This document shows positions 13,627 through 20,729 of a stretch of 29,185 nucleotides of DNA, piece by piece. The notes under the pieces were generated by a model. That model did not search any database and was not told the DNA's origin. It saw only the letters and a list, made by a program, of their open reading frames with translations. Every line of letters begins with the position of its first letter. Position 1 is the stretch's first letter. Made by a program: the position numbers and the translations under genes. Origin of the DNA: a virus; IMG/VR virus record IMGVR_UViG_3300009094_000056, positions 1 to 29,185 of that record. The stretch is one strand, 5' to 3'.

Positions 13627-15060
13627 ATGTGGCAAAGATATAACCAAGGAAGTCACATCTTCGAGAAGTCCCTCGACAATGGTGCGAGCTGGGTTCCGAT
13701 GCCGATTAATGCGTCGAGTTTGGAAGGGACTGCTCCCCCCGGAGTTGTTCCCCCACTACCTGCAAACATTGCGTATACGAATGTCGCTAATAGTTTTATC
13801 AAGCGACAGACAATTACTCCAGCAGATACTGATGGACCTAGTCCTTATTATGCTTTGGAGGTAAGAGGACCGGCTGTTCTAAATGGTGCTCATGCAGGTA
13901 TTATCTTCAATCAGCCAAATCAAGCAATTGATGCTAAGAAATTTCGTATTATCAGCTATGCTGATCATCTCCGATTCGAGGCTGTAGCTGATTCTGAAGG
14001 CTCCACTATAGGAGGTGAGACTTTTCTAGACCGAGCTGGTAACTTTACAGTAGCTAATAATCTCAAGGCAGGATCTTTTATCGTTGCTGGAACTTGTGTT
14101 AGGGCTGTTGGTGCTCGTGGTGCGCCACCTTCTACTGGTGGTGGGATTGAACTATTTTTCCAGAGTGGAAGTGGTTATCTTCACGGGTATAACATTACTA
14201 CATCAAGTTATACTCCCATAATAATTTATGGGGAGGGCGTTAGGATAGGCCGAGGCGACCTCTACGTGGATGGTGGAGGCGCACAAGTCTTTGGGCCTAT
14301 ATATCCTGGTCGATATGATACAACCTGGGGGATTCAAACTAGTTGGTATCTTGCCTCTCACGGATCATATGGACTATTTAGCAATACTGGTCTGTATCTA
14401 AGTGGTGGATTGACGGTAGTTTCTACGTCGAATTTTATTGGCTTAATCAGATTAGCGTGCGACGTCTGGCATATTAGTGGTGAGGGTAATCAACGCCTTC
14501 ATTTCACGACGAGTGGCATCACTTACATTCAAGGCAGCGGCATCACCTTTCGGAATAATGCTCAGGTCGATACCTTCATCGTAGATTCTGGTGGAAATGC
14601 CAACTGTGGCGGAGTCTTTAAGTGTGGATGGGGATACGCTTGTCGTGCGGGTGTCTATGGAGCCTACAGCGGGAATTATTTCAACTACCAATGGACTGGC
14701 GCGATTCAGTGCTGGATTGACGCGAGCTACTTCGGAGATATTACGTTAGCCTCCGATGCACGACTCAAACGGGATTTCACGCCTCTGGTAGGTAGTCTTG
14801 ATAAAGTGCTTCAGATGCGTCCTGGCACCTTCTATTTCAAACCAATGAGCGAGGATGCTGAGGCTGATCCCCATCTTCGACTTGGTTTACTTGCGCAGGA
14901 TGTGCAGGAGGTTGCTCCAGAGCTAGTTCGTAATACTGGAATGAAGACCTACCTGACTCCAGATGGTCTTCAGCAAATCAATTACCTTGAAATGATACCG
15001 ATGTTGGTCGCCGCCATTAAGGAACTAAATCAGAAAGTAGAGGAGAAATGGAAGAACTAG
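13627..15060 (+). CDS. Tail fibre/spike with C-terminal S74 self-cleaving chaperone
   Basis: A 477-residue fibre. The C-terminal 102 residues match the peptidase S74 (endosialidase-type) intramolecular chaperone: ASDARLKRDF with the cleavage Ser at 376 and the catalytic Lys at 381, then LRLGLLAQDVQEVAPELV and INYLEMIPMLVAAIKELNQ ending in a coiled coil. This domain helps the trimer fold and then cuts itself off. The body is a Gly/Ser/Thr-rich beta structure with many short repeats; the N-terminus (KSLDNGASWVPMPINAS) probably attaches it to the tail. The middle is clearly AT-richer than the capsid genes (line 14041-14100 has 22 G/C in 60 against 37 in 60 at 6301-6360), a sign of exchange. Confidence 0.85.
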   Translation: MWQRYNQGSHIFEKSLDNGASWVPMPINASSLEGTAPPGVVPPLPANIAYTNVANSFIKRQTITPADTDGPSPYYALEVRGPAVLNGAHAGIIFNQPNQAIDAKKFRIISYADHLRFEAVADSEGSTIGGETFLDRAGNFTVANNLKAGSFIVAGTCVRAVGARGAPPSTGGGIELFFQSGSGYLHGYNITTSSYTPIIIYGEGVRIGRGDLYVDGGGAQVFGPIYPGRYDTTWGIQTSWYLASHGSYGLFSNTGLYLSGGLTVVSTSNFIGLIRLACDVWHISGEGNQRLHFTTSGITYIQGSGITFRNNAQVDTFIVDSGGNANCGGVFKCGWGYACRAGVYGAYSGNYFNYQWTGAIQCWIDASYFGDITLASDARLKRDFTPLVGSLDKVLQMRPGTFYFKPMSEDAEADPHLRLGLLAQDVQEVAPELVRNTGMKTYLTPDGLQQINYLEMIPMLVAAIKELNQKVEEKWKN

Positions 15061-15398: not shown

Positions 15399-15582
15399 AC
15401 TTCCGCGTCAAGAAATTACCCTCGATGAACTCTACGCAATCATAGGAGAACTTGACGTTGTTCGTCGGAAGATGACTCAGCAACTTCAGCAACTCTACAA
15501 GCAGGTCGATGAGATGGCGCAAGAAATTGCCACGCTGAGGAACAAAGATGGCGGACTGGCTCAAGCCGACAATTACAAGTAA
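15391..15582 (+). CDS. Short coiled-coil protein
   Basis: A 63-residue protein that overlaps the previous gene by 8 bp and the next by 35 bp. Residues about 8-52 form one long heptad-like helix (LDELYAIIGELDVVRRKMTQ, then LYKQVDEMAQEIATLR), as in trimeric or dimeric coiled coils. Short coiled-coil proteins next to fibre genes can be fibre connectors or chaperones, and in some phages a similar small ORF lies before lysis genes; neither is shown here. Confidence 0.6.
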   Translation: MNELPRQEITLDELYAIIGELDVVRRKMTQQLQQLYKQVDEMAQEIATLRNKDGGLAQADNYK

Positions 15583-16177
15583 TTACGTTACCTTCGTCGA
15601 TGAGGTGAAGGACCGTGATTTCGATGCTATCTCTCTGCAATACAATGCGCTCGTAAATCCCCCGAACGCCTCGGTGAAGCTCGTTCGAAGCCCTGTCAAA
15701 TTCCAGCAATGGATGACGGGAGCTTGGAACGAGCTGACCCTATCTGTAGAAGGCGGGGGAACTGGGGCGACCTCGATTGCAGGCATTCGGACAGCTATTG
15801 GCCTTGGGTCGATGGCTTACCAGAATTCCAATGCGATTGCAGTTACGGGAGGGACGATAGCCAACATCTCCTCAGGTGGTTCTTATTTTAACCATCAGGG
15901 TGGGACGATGACTGTTCTTACTCCCACCATAGCGGGTCATAGCCTGACAGTAAATGCGCCCTCGAATAGTTACGTTGGTATATTAGTTCAAGGGCCTTCT
16001 GGACCAACCTCTCACGGGCTTGCGATTTCTGCGGGTGCGAACCATAACGACTTCCCTCTTATCATCCGAAACTACAATAACACCACAGAGATAATGAGAG
16101 TTACAGGCTTGGGATCTGTCTGGATTCCCGGCACTTTCGCTATTCCCGTAGGCGCAGATAAATGGGTTCCTTGGTAA
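15548..16177 (+). CDS. Short tail fibre/spike-like protein
   Basis: A 209-residue protein. Residues about 70-105 hold the familiar fibre linker GGGTGATSIAGIRTAIGLGS followed by an ITGG-like stretch (IAVTGGTIANI), which is typical of phage tail fibres. The rest is Gly/Ser/Asn-rich beta sequence. The first 60 residues (TITSNYVTFVDEVKDRDFDA) may be the tail-binding part. Its TAA is followed immediately by the ATG of the His-rich gene, so these are in one transcript. It may anchor or pair with the His-rich protein, which is inference. Confidence 0.7.
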   Translation: MADWLKPTITSNYVTFVDEVKDRDFDAISLQYNALVNPPNASVKLVRSPVKFQQWMTGAWNELTLSVEGGGTGATSIAGIRTAIGLGSMAYQNSNAIAVTGGTIANISSGGSYFNHQGGTMTVLTPTIAGHSLTVNAPSNSYVGILVQGPSGPTSHGLAISAGANHNDFPLIIRNYNNTTEIMRVTGLGSVWIPGTFAIPVGADKWVPW

Positions 16178-17092
16178 ATGGCTAAGAGACCCGGCTCCCT
16201 TTGGGTTGAAGGCAACAACCTTAACTACGTAGATGCCTCCTCTAGGGAGTGGTCCTATGCTGGCACATTCATCAAGAGTATAGGATTCGCTCGTCCTGGC
16301 TCTCTATGGGTAGAGGGTTATTACATCTACTACGTCAACGAAGCTGGCAACACCGTCTTTAGACTAGAGGCCGTTTGGAATGGTGAGTATCATGGGAGAA
16401 CGGGAAGCCTCTGGGTCGAAGGGGATAAGCTTCGCCATATTGGAGGAGGAGAGGCTGCAGAGTTCCATGCTCATTCTGATATTACCCATCAAAACGTAGC
16501 TCATACAGATACCGGAATCGCTACTCACACCAACACTCATACAAACATTGGGCATCAAAACGTTGCTCACGTCAATTATCATCAAAACGTAGCTCACGTA
16601 AATACACACACGAATTACGAGCACGCGAATTATCATGGAGACACTCATACTAACATCGCACATACGGATGAGTGGGCTGTTCTGGAGCATGGGGATACGC
16701 ATTCCAACATTACTCCTTATAGTTATCATCATGCAGATTGTTGGCGCTACGATCGGGGCACTGTAATTGACCATCACGACCATCAGGATTGGCCGGGTTA
16801 TCCCCATAATGATGGTTACGTCTTTCAGGATCACTGTGATTGGCACGATAACCTAGCTCATGCGAATAACCATTACGACTCACCGGGTCAGGCCGCGCAC
16901 ACCAATTATCACGGAAACGTAGATCATCAGAACTACTACACTCAAGTCGCGCACACAAATAATCATGGGGACACGCATACGGATATTGCTCACAGCGATG
17001 TTCCTCATGCGAATCATAACGACACGATTCACCAAAATGTCGCCCATGCGAATGTCACTCATCAGGATCAGCCGGTTCTCATAGGACTCTAA
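16178..17092 (+). CDS. His-Xaa-[Asn/Asp] repeat protein, candidate radical SAM substrate
   Basis: A 304-residue protein in two parts. Residues 4-96 hold three units of about 35 residues, each opening with R(P/T)GSLWVEG at 4, 39 and 74, likely a small beta domain that anchors it to the tail. Residues 97-295 contain 39 His, of which 36 are followed by any residue and then Asn or Asp, spaced mostly 4-5 residues apart. HQNVAH occurs four times (104, 126, 135, 285) with different codons, and HGDTHTNIAHTD is echoed as HGDTHTDIAHSD, so the protein pattern is selected and old. Only two Cys (188, 220) lie in the region. The gene overlaps the radical SAM gene by one base. Either a modified fibre, a metal-binding shaft, or both; no similar family is known to me by name. 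Confidence 0.75.
   Translation: MAKRPGSLWVEGNNLNYVDASSREWSYAGTFIKSIGFARPGSLWVEGYYIYYVNEAGNTVFRLEAVWNGEYHGRTGSLWVEGDKLRHIGGGEAAEFHAHSDITHQNVAHTDTGIATHTNTHTNIGHQNVAHVNYHQNVAHVNTHTNYEHANYHGDTHTNIAHTDEWAVLEHGDTHSNITPYSYHHADCWRYDRGTVIDHHDHQDWPGYPHNDGYVFQDHCDWHDNLAHANNHYDSPGQAAHTNYHGNVDHQNYYTQVAHTNNHGDTHTDIAHSDVPHANHNDTIHQNVAHANVTHQDQPVLIGL
16187..16423 (+). repeat. Three PGSLWVEG units (35-residue period)
   Basis: Encodes R(P/T)GSLWVEG at residues 4-12, 39-47 and 74-82 of the His-rich protein. Each is followed by a strand ending in Tyr-Val or His-Ile. The DNA of the three copies differs at many third positions, so they are not a recent duplication. Confidence 0.85.
16466..17062 (+). repeat. His-Xaa-[Asn/Asp] repeat region
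   Basis: Encodes residues 97-295 of the His-rich protein. His makes up about one in five residues, and 36 of 39 fit His-Xaa-[Asn/Asp]; the exceptions are His97, His184 and His200. Synonymous codon differences between copies of HQNVAH (16487, 16553, 16580, 17030) show selection on the protein. Confidence 0.9.
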
Positions 17093-18306
17093 TGACTGTC
17101 GAATATCTTCCCGTTGGTATCGCCTGCAACATCGCATGCAAATACTGCTATCAGGAATCGCAGAGAGATGCAGGCAATATCAACACGCCGCGAGACTGGG
17201 ACCGGGTGAAGTTTCAACTCGACCGTCTTGGAGTCGACTTTGCAGTTTTTGGTGGTGAGCCTCTCCTCACTCCGATGGTGCACCTCGAAGAAGTATTTAA
17301 GTATGGCTTCGAGAAGCACGGTAGGAACGGGATTCAGACGAACGGATCTCTCATCACCGATGAACACATCGAGATGTTTTACAAGTATAAGGTCCACGTA
17401 GGAATCTCGATAGATGGCCCCGGTGAGCTGAATAGTGTTCGCTGCACGAACGATTTGACTGCTAAGACAGAGCTTGCGATCAAGAAGCTATGTGATCGGG
17501 GAATCCCTCCATCCCTTATCATGACGATCCATAAAGGGAATAATGATATTCCTGCTCTCACTCGCTGGCTTGATAGTCTTATGTCTATCGGGCTACGCTA
17601 CGTTAACTTCCACGAAATGGAGCAGGAGTGCGGACAAGAGCAAGAAGCACTCTCCGAGGAAGATAACATAAAGAATTTCCTCGCTCTCTATGAATGGACG
17701 AAGCGTTCTAAGGTTCACGCAAACCCGTTCGTCGACATTCAATCCCTCCTCACCGAAGAACAACCGAGAGCGAACTGTGTCTGGCATAACTGTGACCCTC
17801 AGACGACCGAAGCGGTCCAAGGAATAAGTCCCGATGGTTCGATGTCAAATTGCGGTCGAGCTTACAAAGACGGGGTCAACTGGCTTAAAGCTGACACTCC
17901 CGGCTACGAGCGATATATCGCGCTTTATCACACTCCTCAAGAGTTTGGAGGGTGTAAAGACTGTAAATATTTCGCTTTCTGCAAAGGGCAGTGTCCTGGA
18001 ACTGCTATCGGAGGAGATTGGAGAAACCGAAGTCTAGAATGCCGTCTTTGGTATTCACTCTTCGAAACGATTGCGGCCGACAATAAAGACAAGCTGCTCT
18101 CTCCTGAGATAGTAGATAGGAAGGTTCAGGATCTCCTTGGTCGCTGGAGTGTTCCACAGAATACAGACCACGGAGATAAGCACGGAGATTCTCCCCACGG
18201 GGACCAGCATGGAGATCATACCGACTACGGTCCTGGCGTCGAAGCAGAATTCTTAACAGAGAGACCAGAATGGCTACAGCAACCGGAAGAAAGCAAGAGC
18301 GTTTAG
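17092..18306 (+). CDS. Radical SAM/SPASM maturase with HGD-repeat tail
   Basis: A 404-residue radical SAM enzyme. The CxxxCxxC cluster is Cys12/Cys16/Cys19 (CNIACKYC), the SAM-binding GGEP is at 54-57, and a TNGSLI segment near 83 fits the barrel. A SPASM region follows: Cys229, Cys234, Cys254, then Cys288-x2-Cys291-x5-Cys297-x3-Cys301 and Cys317, enough for two auxiliary iron-sulphur clusters. SPASM enzymes of this type usually modify peptides (crosslinks, epimerisation or decarboxylation). The tail at 360-377 has HGD four times and HTD once, matching the repeat of the neighbouring protein. It overlaps the His-rich gene by 1 bp and the next gene by 37 bp. A role in modifying the His-rich protein is inferred from context. 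Confidence 0.88.
   Translation: MTVEYLPVGIACNIACKYCYQESQRDAGNINTPRDWDRVKFQLDRLGVDFAVFGGEPLLTPMVHLEEVFKYGFEKHGRNGIQTNGSLITDEHIEMFYKYKVHVGISIDGPGELNSVRCTNDLTAKTELAIKKLCDRGIPPSLIMTIHKGNNDIPALTRWLDSLMSIGLRYVNFHEMEQECGQEQEALSEEDNIKNFLALYEWTKRSKVHANPFVDIQSLLTEEQPRANCVWHNCDPQTTEAVQGISPDGSMSNCGRAYKDGVNWLKADTPGYERYIALYHTPQEFGGCKDCKYFAFCKGQCPGTAIGGDWRNRSLECRLWYSLFETIAADNKDKLLSPEIVDRKVQDLLGRWSVPQNTDHGDKHGDSPHGDQHGDHTDYGPGVEAEFLTERPEWLQQPEESKSV
18169..18222 (+). repeat. HGD-type repeat tail of the radical SAM enzyme
   Basis: Encodes residues 360-377 of the enzyme: five His units, all His-Xaa-Asp, followed by YGPG. The same His-Xaa-Asp/Asn unit fills the neighbouring substrate candidate. It may be a substrate mimic, a tether or a metal-binding tail. 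Confidence 0.85.
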
Positions 18307-19649
18307 ATTTTACCATCCCTGAGTTCTTCCGAACCGTTTGGGTCTCGGAGAATGCTAGGGATACCTGGGAGCCTCGCATCCACGCTATAGCCTCAAACTG
18401 GCCTTACGTGGAGCGGGCTACTTTAGTTTCAGGAATGCGAGAGGGAATCCTCCAAAGCATTTCTCCGGTAGATCTCCCGATGGTTCATAACTGGTCATCG
18501 GAGCATAAGATTCCGATGGTCATTGTAGGAATGGAAGCGGCCTCTGGTCTCTCTTATGGGAATACTTCTATTCCTTACGAGCAGGGAAAGCCATTCTCTT
18601 ATCGGATTTACTTTGGACATTCCCCAGAGAACTTCCAGACGGCATGGAAAGAAGGTAATCAAGCAGTTATAGGGAGAATGTTGGGTTATCCTCCCTGCTG
18701 TATCGAATTTTTCCAGAAGCACTGGACCCAGAACGGTTGGAGAGACCTAACTTACCATTCTTACATAGAGCCAGAGCAGCGGAATCTGATGTATAACAAC
18801 GTGCTCCTCCGTTCCTTAGGAGTCCGAGCCGTTTCGCATCTTCCCTGCTCTGTAGCTTGCCGACCTTCTTGCATAATAGGAATGGACGTATTCAAGGTCA
18901 TGGAGCAGTGCGGCCATCAGGCAGAGCTGGTCGATTGGATGAAGACCCTTCTGGCTATGCCGATGCTATGGTCCTCACTCCACGGAGTAGCAATTATCAC
19001 GACGCCCATATTCAAGTTGATTAGTGCGACCGAACCGCTTGCGAAAGTCGCTGAATTGCGGCTGCTGAGTGACTACTATCCCGATGAGGGTGCGAGTGGA
19101 AATACCTTTCCCTTCCAGCACTTCAAGACGCTGAAGGTGAATATCTCCAGAAGTTCTGACTTCCTCGATAACGGATTCATGAGCCGTAGTTCGATGGAGA
19201 GTGCTCACAGGTTCATTATTTCTCTCACACCGAATCGAATCGAGGGGATGGTTGGTAACATCCTCGACCTAGGTTGTGGGAATGGAAAGCTACTTCTCGA
19301 AATTCAGAAGGAGCATCAGGATACGGTTCTACATGGTGTAGATACTAAGGATATCAAAGCACTCGGCTGGAATTTCTATCGCACTGATATTTACGATTTC
19401 GAGTGGGAGAAGCAATACGAGCTTACCCTGATGTCTGTTGAGCGATTGTTCGAGGCTAATCCGGATGCAGCTATCGACCTCCTGGAGACAATCGCTCGGT
19501 ATTCACGGTATCTCCTGCTCTCAACCTATAACCAGTGGATGGGAGGATTCGAAGAAGTAATCGATAAACTTTTCAGCGTGGTCACAGTAGGTAGAGATCC
19601 CGTCTTGGGATTCGAAGGTAAGCTTCTGGAGAGAAAACATGCCATTTGA
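18270..19649 (+). CDS. DUF483-like Cys-rich domain fused to class I methyltransferase
   Basis: A 459-residue fusion. Residues about 100-210 have GYPPCC (139-144) followed by IEFFQKHW, and LPCSVACRPSC with Cys193, Cys197 and Cys201; this GYPxCC...PCSxxC layout recalls the DUF483 family, whose function is unknown. Residues about 325-459 look like a class I SAM-dependent methyltransferase: motif I ILDLGCGNGK (331-340), an acidic strand end at GVDTKD and a later YELTLMSVERL strand. It overlaps the radical SAM gene by 37 bp, so the two should be made together. I infer a second modifying step on the His-rich protein. A nucleic-acid or small-molecule methyltransferase is not excluded. Confidence 0.65.
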   Translation: MATATGRKQERLDFTIPEFFRTVWVSENARDTWEPRIHAIASNWPYVERATLVSGMREGILQSISPVDLPMVHNWSSEHKIPMVIVGMEAASGLSYGNTSIPYEQGKPFSYRIYFGHSPENFQTAWKEGNQAVIGRMLGYPPCCIEFFQKHWTQNGWRDLTYHSYIEPEQRNLMYNNVLLRSLGVRAVSHLPCSVACRPSCIIGMDVFKVMEQCGHQAELVDWMKTLLAMPMLWSSLHGVAIITTPIFKLISATEPLAKVAELRLLSDYYPDEGASGNTFPFQHFKTLKVNISRSSDFLDNGFMSRSSMESAHRFIISLTPNRIEGMVGNILDLGCGNGKLLLEIQKEHQDTVLHGVDTKDIKALGWNFYRTDIYDFEWEKQYELTLMSVERLFEANPDAAIDLLETIARYSRYLLLSTYNQWMGGFEEVIDKLFSVVTVGRDPVLGFEGKLLERKHAI

Positions 19650-20349
19650 CATGAGTCGTTGTCCGCAAACTGAACCTGAGGCGCTCGATTGGTTCTATAA
19701 GGGAATCGGTCGAGTGATGGGTTCATCGGCGAGTGATTGGGAGCAGGTCATGACGAATTGTGGCCTCCCTCCCGGTTACGGTCCTGGGGTCGTTCCGAAT
19801 GCGTTGATGCCCTTCTTCGCATTCACACAGCAGTTCTCAGGAGGCCCGAAGGGTCGTATCTTCCTCCCGACTGATCGACCCGACGAACTCGGTTACTACA
19901 CCCGTTGTATCCAGTATCTCGACGATGCCGCAGGAACCTACTCCAAAGCAGTCTCTGACGCAGCTCGCGCAAAGAAGCCAGTTCCGGAGATTGACTTCCA
20001 GAAGGCAGCCAAATCTGGAGGACTTGTATGGGCCTGGTATTGGGTCGCTGGAAACGAATACGTTCCGGTCCAGGACGAGAGCGGATCAGGAGGCGGAGAA
20101 CTCCCTCCTCAGGGAGGTCTATCAGCAGAAGAAGTCCAGGCAATGATCGATGCCTCCTTGAATCCGATCTACGCCATGATGGAAGGGGCACTGAAGATCG
20201 GGGACAAGATCGCTCTCAAGACGAACTCTGGAATGCTTGCGGGTATCGAGGGTGGTGGACCAACTGTGGTGGACCAGCCGGTGAAGCTCATCGGTAAGCC
20301 TGAACCTCCCCACGCATGGGAGTCGTTTGAAATCGTCAAGGGGGAATGA
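19639..20349 (+). CDS. Tail-region protein with C-terminal beta-trefoil-like lobe
   Basis: A 236-residue protein overlapping the methyltransferase gene by 11 bp, with GGAGAG upstream of the ATG. Residues about 1-145 are a globular unknown with several Trp/Tyr (GLVWAWYWVAGNEYVP). A Gly-rich linker (GSGGGELPPQGG) leads to a helix with EEVQAMIDASLNPIYAMMEG and then GDKIALKTNSGMLAGIEGGG with AWESFEIV at the end, the pattern of one lobe of a fascin-like beta-trefoil. Such lobes bind sugars or proteins, and a trimer would give a complete trefoil. It may be a host-contact or fibre-tip protein. The fold call is from the short motif only. Confidence 0.55.
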   Translation: MPFDMSRCPQTEPEALDWFYKGIGRVMGSSASDWEQVMTNCGLPPGYGPGVVPNALMPFFAFTQQFSGGPKGRIFLPTDRPDELGYYTRCIQYLDDAAGTYSKAVSDAARAKKPVPEIDFQKAAKSGGLVWAWYWVAGNEYVPVQDESGSGGGELPPQGGLSAEEVQAMIDASLNPIYAMMEGALKIGDKIALKTNSGMLAGIEGGGPTVVDQPVKLIGKPEPPHAWESFEIVKGE

Positions 20350-20729
20350 AGATTCGTCCTTTCCAAGATAGCGACATACCCGAAATTGACGCTATCTGGA
20401 AAAAGCACCATAGCGACAACTTTTCTGTGCCGAATCGCTCTACCCGATTAGTAGAATGGGTAGCCGAGGAGGACGGGAGGGTTGTCGCTTATGGTCAAGT
20501 TAAGCTCTTTGCAGAAGCTATCATCATCCTCGACCTAGATGCCTCGCAACGTGCTAAGGTAGTTGCTCTGAAAAGCCTTCTCCTTGAAGCTTTTAGAGGT
20601 GCTGATTTAGCAGGTCTTGAGGATCTTCATTGTTTCGTGCAAGATCCAGCCTTCGCAACTCTCCTCATCAATCATTTTGGTTTCGAATCCAGAGAAGATC
20701 CTGGAGAACTCCTTACTAGGAAGGTGTAA
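20346..20729 (+). CDS. GNAT-like protein, acetyl-CoA motif degenerate
   Basis: A 127-residue protein that starts like GNAT N-acetyltransferases (IRPFQDSDIPEIDAIWKKHH, then VEWVAEEDGRVVAYGQVKLF), with strand-helix order of the fold and a C-terminal NHFGFE segment. The acetyl-CoA loop (R/Q-x-x-G-x-G/A) is not seen where expected, where ASQRAKVVALKSLL lies, so activity is doubtful. Its ATG overlaps the previous stop (ATGA), and its TAA is one base before the next ATG. Similar small GNAT-like ORFs sit in podovirus late regions. It may be a folding or structural remnant of the enzyme. Confidence 0.55.
   Translation: MKIRPFQDSDIPEIDAIWKKHHSDNFSVPNRSTRLVEWVAEEDGRVVAYGQVKLFAEAIIILDLDASQRAKVVALKSLLLEAFRGADLAGLEDLHCFVQDPAFATLLINHFGFESREDPGELLTRKV

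Follow-up and report, generated by a model that had tools for sequence, protein, structure and literature searches.

Composition of the cassette

The DNA analysed here, a 29,185-bp window of the IMG/VR virus record IMGVR_UViG_3300009094_000056, proceeds from head genes to tail genes and then to a cassette at positions 16178-19649, which consists of three genes in overlapping frames within the tail/fibre block. The products are a protein rich in His-Xaa-[Asp/Asn] (H-x-[D/N]) repeats, termed P0002, a radical S-adenosylmethionine (SAM) enzyme of the SPASM type, P0003, and P0004, in which a DUF483-like domain precedes a methyltransferase domain. An initial annotation had described three overlapping genes and proposed that they serve the radical SAM modification of a phage structural protein; the open reading frames (ORFs) bear out this layout:

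16178-17092, + strand: H-x-[D/N] repeat protein P0002, 304 aa, with an N-terminal beta domain, a long repeat and a C-terminal strand
16178-16462, + strand: N-terminal domain of P0002 (residues 1-95), with three PGSxWVEGxxLxYxDxxG copies; AlphaFold predicted local distance difference test (pLDDT) about 88-98
16472-17068, + strand: repeat segment of P0002 (residues 99-297), with 36 H-x-[D/N], FQD and WHD; predicted to be disordered without modification
17092-18306, + strand: radical SAM/SPASM enzyme P0003, 404 aa, with C12/C16/C19 and C229, C234, C254, C288, C291, C297, C301 and C317
18166-18225, + strand: substrate-like C-terminal tail of P0003, DHGDKHGDSPHGDQHGDHTD (residues 359-378), with five HGD/HTD motifs
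18270-19649, + strand: P0004, 459 aa (whole ORF), DUF483-like and methyltransferase protein
18270-19124, + strand: DUF483-like domain of P0004 (about residues 1-285), with near-invariant C143, C144, C193 and C197
19149-19646, + strand: class I SAM-dependent methyltransferase domain of P0004 (about residues 294-459), missing from Thermus phage homologues

The stop codon of P0002 and the start codon of P0003 overlap in the sequence TAATG, and P0003 and P0004 overlap by 37 nt, so translation of the three genes is likely to be coupled.

The repeat density previously reported for about 200 residues of P0002 was confirmed: residues 96-304 contain 39 His, of which 36 occur as H-x-[D/N], and in the whole protein the motif accounts for 36 of 41 His. 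Among 20,000 shuffles of P0002 the highest H-x-[D/N] count was 17. When the window was compared with its close relative L001 at the 36 motifs, no His was changed, D/N left the {D,N} set at a single site and eight D/N swaps were seen; elsewhere in the repeat the middle x was changed in 28% and other positions in 35% of the cases, and silent changes were plentiful. Chance or low complexity as the origin of the repeat is ruled out by the shuffles, this codon-level selection and the synteny described below.

No leader was recognised in this 304-aa tail-region protein, and a PDB search with P0002 returned no significant match. AlphaFold modelled residues 1-95 as a confident beta domain, to which a further confident strand close to the C-terminus (300-303) seems to be added, while most of residues 119-260 had a pLDDT of about 42-50 and no fold. 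In the model the repeat looks like a long closed insert between the beta domain and the C-terminal strand. Such disorder would be in keeping with rigidity that comes from covalent crosslinks, although the low confidence may also reflect an oligomeric or metal-dependent fold unseen by the method.

The repeat follows an aromatic-x-[D/N] grammar

Across 104 repeat proteins, D/N occupies the +2 position of 3462 of the 3783 His (91.5%), as compared to 15.9% expected from composition, a count that is partly circular since the proteins were chosen by that motif. His is present at +2 in 11 and Ser in 15 of these 3783 cases, and Pro is almost excluded between and after the His-[D/N] pair. A non-circular test was restricted to the repeat segments of a strictly non-redundant set of 85 proteins, selected by His only. 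Inside these repeats, the probability of finding D/N at +2 was 0.49 for Phe, 0.32 for Tyr and 0.35 for Trp, as opposed to 0.05-0.11 for L, I, V, M, T, S, G, A and P; the corresponding figure of 97% for His arises partly by selection. With the HxD motifs held fixed, F-x-[D/N] was observed 153 times versus 26.6 expected (maximum of 39 in 300 shuffles), Y-x-[D/N] 166 times versus 42.7 (maximum 59) and W-x-[D/N] 33 times versus 8.9 (maximum 17), corresponding to enrichments of 3.7- to 5.8-fold over the shuffles. In aligned relatives, D/N at +2 was kept in 516 of 522 His-to-Phe changes, cases that were drawn from overlapping pairs and are not independent, and was lost in most non-aromatic replacements.

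The order is fixed, with the aromatic residue first and D/N second, whereas His, Phe, Tyr and Trp are exchangeable among themselves, as are Asp and Asn. This grammar points to a three-residue cyclophane rather than to a metal site, because a metal site would reject Phe and prefer Asp to Asn. Metal binding, crosslinking and protease resistance had all been suggested as purposes of the modified fibre; the replacement of His by Phe, Tyr or Trp and of Asp by Asn favours crosslinking and does not favour metal binding.

Linkage of repeat protein, radical SAM enzyme and DUF483 partner

Searches with the three cassette proteins provided loci L001-L211. Linkage was assessed in 70 family radical SAM loci, obtained after removal of identical enzymes and with at least 3 kb upstream and 2.5 kb downstream. 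A repeat ORF was found within 8 kb in 65 and a DUF483 partner in all 70 of these loci; a search for the three-gene neighbourhood in other genomes, which the initial annotation had recommended, was thus positive. The corresponding numbers for 57 distant radical SAM loci from the same scan, used as control, were 1 and 0. The single control match, in L081, is a sulfatase-like protein with scattered HxD and was dismissed as a chance match. The 70 loci share ancestry and do not represent 70 independent events; divergence in the tree of family enzymes (67 rows) is deep, with a median end branch of 0.37 changes per site.

The association also holds in the opposite direction. When the DNA of all viral contigs was scanned, blind to the enzyme, for five HxD units in succession, 69 stretches on 68 contigs were obtained, three of which (L228, L232 and L274) matched the DNA pattern in the wrong frame, without a genuine repeat gene, and were excluded. 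Among the 65 true repeat contigs the enzyme was present in 59, five were truncated at or beside the repeat gene and one was a real exception, so that the situation regarded at the outset as damaging to the proposal, namely repeat homologues that mostly occur without the enzyme, was not encountered. As for the truncated contigs, the repeat gene runs off the end of L213, L218, L236 and L263, and L256 starts within a repeat gene laid out as in L054, where the enzymes are located upstream; these five contigs were not counted as repeats without enzyme. The cassette is a widespread module, conserved far beyond the window contig. The family is rare in cellular genomes, with 1 of 369, 4 of 297 and 2 of 396 in three sampled groups, already-known genome(s) being counted in.

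Cultured phages, an archaeal provirus and cellular relatives

The module is present in cultured viruses. In the Thermus phages phiMa and Cumys, the genes for the repeat protein, radical SAM enzyme and DUF483 protein follow each other in a row and adjoin baseplate genes; the repeat proteins phiMa_29 and Cumys_13 contain 53 and 54 HxD, respectively, with every His in a motif, and the enzymes share about 42% identity with P0003 (tblastn). Phage phiLo has three successive giant repeat proteins, phiLo_135-137 (58, 104 and 75 motifs), beside baseplate wedge genes, with the enzyme pair nearby, so that phiLo_136 offers up to 104 candidate sites in one chain. A provirus on a haloarchaeal (Halomicrococcus) plasmid encodes, 3' of a baseplate J gene, the same N-terminal domain, repeat, radical SAM and DUF483 proteins. 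Kolesnik et al. 2024 (PMC11437467) had drawn the three genes of Cumys and phiMa as an "rSAM module" and suggested an unknown DNA modification; in the available part of that article the repeat protein is listed among two proteins without a known function, the H-x-[D/N] repeat goes unmentioned and no link to tail maturation is made. The GenBank start of phiMa_28 (L008 8001-8114) lies 114 nt downstream of the full frame, which is why the deposited protein lacks CxxxCxxC and is called hypothetical.

Chromosomal family members (Marinicella, Bradyrhizobium-group genomes and a Lysobacterales metagenome-assembled genome [MAG]) lack the repeat protein. Within a few kb of each of them is a gene for a homologous peptide of 78-99 aa, and 5 of 5 such peptides end in [VI]H[IV]D[FVIL] (L137 12670-12969; L069 6660-6914; L072 3080-3316; L291 5638-5892; L292 5506-5760). 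The Marinicella peptide matches weakly the NHLP precursor clan, and its cluster (L137) also encodes a C-methyltransferase (TIGR03975, E 3.9e-180; a B12 radical SAM methyltransferase) of ribosomally synthesised and post-translationally modified peptides (RiPPs) as well as a YydG-like epimerase. Since the chromosomal precursors end in HxD, one enzyme family is paired with a RiPP-like precursor bearing one HxD in some genomes and with a viral protein bearing many in others. The single-HxD loci are scattered in the enzyme tree and do not form one group, and their small precursors ending in a single H-[IV]-D may represent an undescribed RiPP class. The actinobacterial MAG locus L073 (12829-13302) encodes an HxD repeat protein with a signal-like N-terminus and a lipoprotein-like Cys that adjoins radical SAM and DUF483 genes; it represents a cellular version that is probably exported.

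The radical SAM enzyme and its DUF483 partner

P0003 scored 61.5 bits with the Pfam Radical_SAM model, against a cut-off of 29.5. It carries CxxxCxxC and eight further Cys in a SPASM-type arrangement, and all 11 Cys are invariant across 67 relatives, in agreement with the complete cluster motifs noted before. The closest solved structure is the anaerobic sulfatase maturase 4k37 (E 1.9e-17). In NCBIfam the best match of P0003 is AmcB (81.5 bits versus a cut-off of 425), and GrrM/OscB (50.8 versus 310) and YhhB (47.9 versus 445) gave lower scores. Of the 67 family enzymes, all matched AmcB at E<=1e-10, 66 DynA and 64 YhhB. Homology alone does not decide the chemistry, since the AmcB score is far below its cut-off and the sulfatase maturase scores nearly as high.

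A substrate-like HxD tail with at least two motifs is present in 80 of 102 family members but in only 1 of 67 controls. In L054 (9508-11451) two radical SAM genes are adjacent, and the second enzyme has 25 HxD motifs at its C-terminus. The HGD tail may be a docking mimic, may itself be modified or may be the remnant of an enzyme-substrate fusion. Neither the HGD/HTD tail of P0003 nor the conservation of the cassette beyond the window contig had been noticed in the initial annotation. In L003 (6001-7197; IMGVR_UViG_3300012159_000003), which has the same neighbours as L002, an in-frame TAG breaks the radical SAM gene, reflecting either a sequencing error or a decayed copy.

P0004 contains the predicted GYPPCC and PCSVAC motifs followed by a class I methyltransferase domain with a DLGCGNG motif and a Rossmann-type SAM-binding fold. 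Its score with DUF483 (PF04467), 19.1 bits, is under the Pfam gathering cut-off of 25; 37 of 59 homologues match PF04467 at E<=1e-3, the best at 9.8e-8. The AlphaFold2 model of P0004 has a mean pLDDT of 91. A PDB search placed matches of the methyltransferase half on top, with NodS and the plantazolicin methyltransferase among them, and found no solved relative of the DUF483 half. The DUF483 proteins of Thermus phages are devoid of the methyltransferase domain, which is an optional part of the module. Fusions of the radical SAM and DUF483 genes occur in L067, L074 and L290.

Similarity to known systems

The known cases of crosslinking by radical SAM enzymes concern small bacterial peptides. 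Three-residue cyclophane-forming enzymes (3-CyFE) bond an aromatic ring at i to the C-beta of i+2, and the available part of PMC11002830 lists Trp or Phe with Asn/Asp (XncB, OscB), Tyr with Asp (YxdB) and, for His as donor, His C2 with Ala (HaaB) or Arg (YhhB). Like the cassette, these triceptide systems (XncB, OscB, YxdB, HaaB, YhhB, AmcB) have a SPASM-type radical SAM enzyme adjoining an aromatic(i)-x-(i+2) substrate, a motif that the viral repeats display, and Asn/Asp acceptors and His donors each have precedent in that part of PMC11002830, but separately. Triceptide enzymes act on short RiPP precursors, whereas the cassette substrate would be a large phage protein whose motifs number from tens to over 100, with His dominant together with D/N, and the cassette enzyme is partnered with DUF483 and scores far below the family cut-offs.

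The Hxs (His-Xaa-Ser) systems, to which a parallel had been drawn initially, likewise combine a His-repeat protein with radical SAM enzyme(s). This resemblance is loose: as was already recognised, the repeat differs, with Ser in place of Asp/Asn in Hxs and at +2 of 15 of 3783 His in the viral proteins, and Hxs involves paired HxsB and HxsC and no DUF483. The cassette holds one radical SAM enzyme, HxsB is missing among the 25 best NCBIfam matches of P0003, and the triceptide enzymes are closer; the cassette was consequently not assigned to Hxs. In the poly-cyclopropylglycine system TvgA/TvgB the radical SAM enzyme acts repeatedly along a tandem-repeat substrate (PMC9062424); it differs from the cassette in its TVGG repeat, its Val side-chain chemistry and its small bacterial peptide.

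Proposed maturation of a tail-region protein and alternative explanations

Co-occurrence, synteny, selection on the motif and the aromatic-x-[D/N] grammar strongly support the original proposal of a radical SAM modification of a phage structural protein, and it is very likely that the enzyme, together with DUF483, modifies aromatic-x-[D/N] motifs in the neighbouring tail-region protein. The cassette would thus be a post-translational maturation system. The repeat protein would be made as an N-terminal beta domain followed by about 200 residues that do not fold on their own. From the beta-carbon of Asp/Asn at i+2 the radical SAM/SPASM enzyme would then take a hydrogen, and this carbon would be joined to the aromatic ring at i, mostly of His and sometimes of Phe, Tyr or Trp, converting each H-x-D/N into a three-residue cyclophane with a loss of 2 Da. 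This candidate chemistry is the probable one. The DUF483 protein might assist as a substrate-handling or electron-transfer partner, perhaps binding metal or an Fe-S cluster via its four conserved Cys, and the fused methyltransferase, where present, would probably add an optional methylation. Tens of rings may stiffen the flexible segment into a protease- and heat-resistant rod. More broadly, we lean slightly towards the view that bacterial and archaeal tailed viruses make poly-cyclophane fibres, with a dedicated radical SAM-DUF483 machine crosslinking tens to more than 100 successive aromatic-x-Asp/Asn triplets per protein.

Several observations weigh against this interpretation. P0003 does not reach the score of any characterised 3-CyFE family tested, the scores with all NCBIfam cyclophane models lie far under the curated cut-offs, and the anaerobic sulfatase maturase, which has a different chemistry, scores nearly as well on P0003 as these models. 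The examples in the available text of PMC11002830 do not include a His-Asp or His-Asn cyclophane. A genuine HxD repeat protein at L258 2011-2841 (whole record L296) has no radical SAM gene in 19 kb, the only sizeable contig of this kind. Of the five family loci without repeat protein, L030 is truncated and L137 and L069 have a single-HxD precursor, whereas no HxD substrate was found near the enzymes of Fulvivirga L071 and Halorussus L282. That P0002 is a virion protein is suggested by its position among tail/baseplate genes only.

Another radical chemistry on the same repeats, such as C-beta oxidation of Asp/Asn or His, decarboxylation, epimerisation or a bond between a His nitrogen and C-beta, appears rather unlikely. 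It draws on the fact that the enzyme is about equally close to the anaerobic sulfatase maturase and to cyclophane formers, and on the match of 66 of 67 enzymes to the DynA/dynobactin model, whose product has a C-N link. However, oxidation, decarboxylation or epimerisation of D/N alone would need no aromatic residue two positions earlier, and Phe is unable to form a C-N imidazole link, yet F-x-[D/N] obeys the same grammar. A metal-binding fibre resembling the T4 gp37 HxH tip, with an enzyme that is unrelated or only tunes the metal sites, is highly improbable. Such HxH iron-binding fibres are known in phages (PMC11705849), and the repeat is a His- and Asp-rich fibre segment; the gp37-type tip, however, has about six or seven HxH motifs, is metal-coordinated and has no enzyme. 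His at +2 in 11 of 3783 cases sets the repeat apart from HxH tips, and the strict His-then-D/N order, the substitution by Asn and by Phe/Tyr/Trp and the tight linkage to the radical SAM enzyme also speak against a metal fibre.

Even less probable is that the module modifies phage DNA, as PMC11437467 suggests for Cumys and phiMa and as would fit the cyanobacterial radical SAM and DUF483 homologues near deazapurine DNA-modification genes reported in the available part of that article. In the analysed regions of the Thermus phages and of the haloarchaeal provirus, the cassette has no annotated DNA-modification gene beside it, the repeat protein is a neighbour in 65 of 70 loci, relatives are located near RiPP precursors, and the enzyme tails copy the repeat. 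The remaining alternative, in which cleavage of the repeat protein releases a RiPP-like product for secretion and no part of the virion is made, was considered the least probable of all, although relatives occur in RiPP clusters with small NHLP-like precursors. The RiPP hallmarks of short precursor, leader and protease/exporter were not recognised in the phage cassette and are found in part in chromosomal relatives such as L137. In the window, no protease or transporter was recognised adjoining the cassette, the AlphaFold model suggests that the repeat is a closed insert, and the cassette lies among tail/baseplate genes in the window, Cumys, phiLo and the haloarchaeal provirus.

If cyclophane formation is correct, the logic of radical SAM crosslinking would be applied to a large viral protein, in an exceptionally large multi-site use on a single protein. 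It would give a function to an unexplained phage module and a predicted role to DUF483, define a new tail-protein type recognisable from sequence and offer a possible route to enzymatically rigidified protein materials. To our knowledge, no radical SAM modification of a virus particle is known, and this one would be the first. Literature searches of open papers did not find a radical SAM-modified phage tail protein, and the repeat substrate of the three-gene module appears to be unreported. The idea can be tested directly, since Thermus thermophilus HB8 is a host for phiMa, Cumys and phiLo and since co-expression of the enzymes with their repeats is feasible.

Neighbouring genes and further loci

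An S74 chaperone fibre and a host-specificity protein are encoded upstream of the cassette, and two features provide its immediate context:

13627-15060, + strand: tail fibre with Peptidase_S74 intramolecular chaperone
15548-16177, + strand: short fibre-like protein directly 5' of the cassette, with a weak tail-fibre match

The Halorussus plasmid locus L282 (8001-10206) encodes a radical SAM and DUF483-like pair without annotated phage genes nearby. At 20346-20729, 3' of the cassette, the window encodes a 127-aa acetyltransferase-like protein, which had no Pfam match at E 0.01 and is kept in the close relatives L001, L002, L004 and L018.

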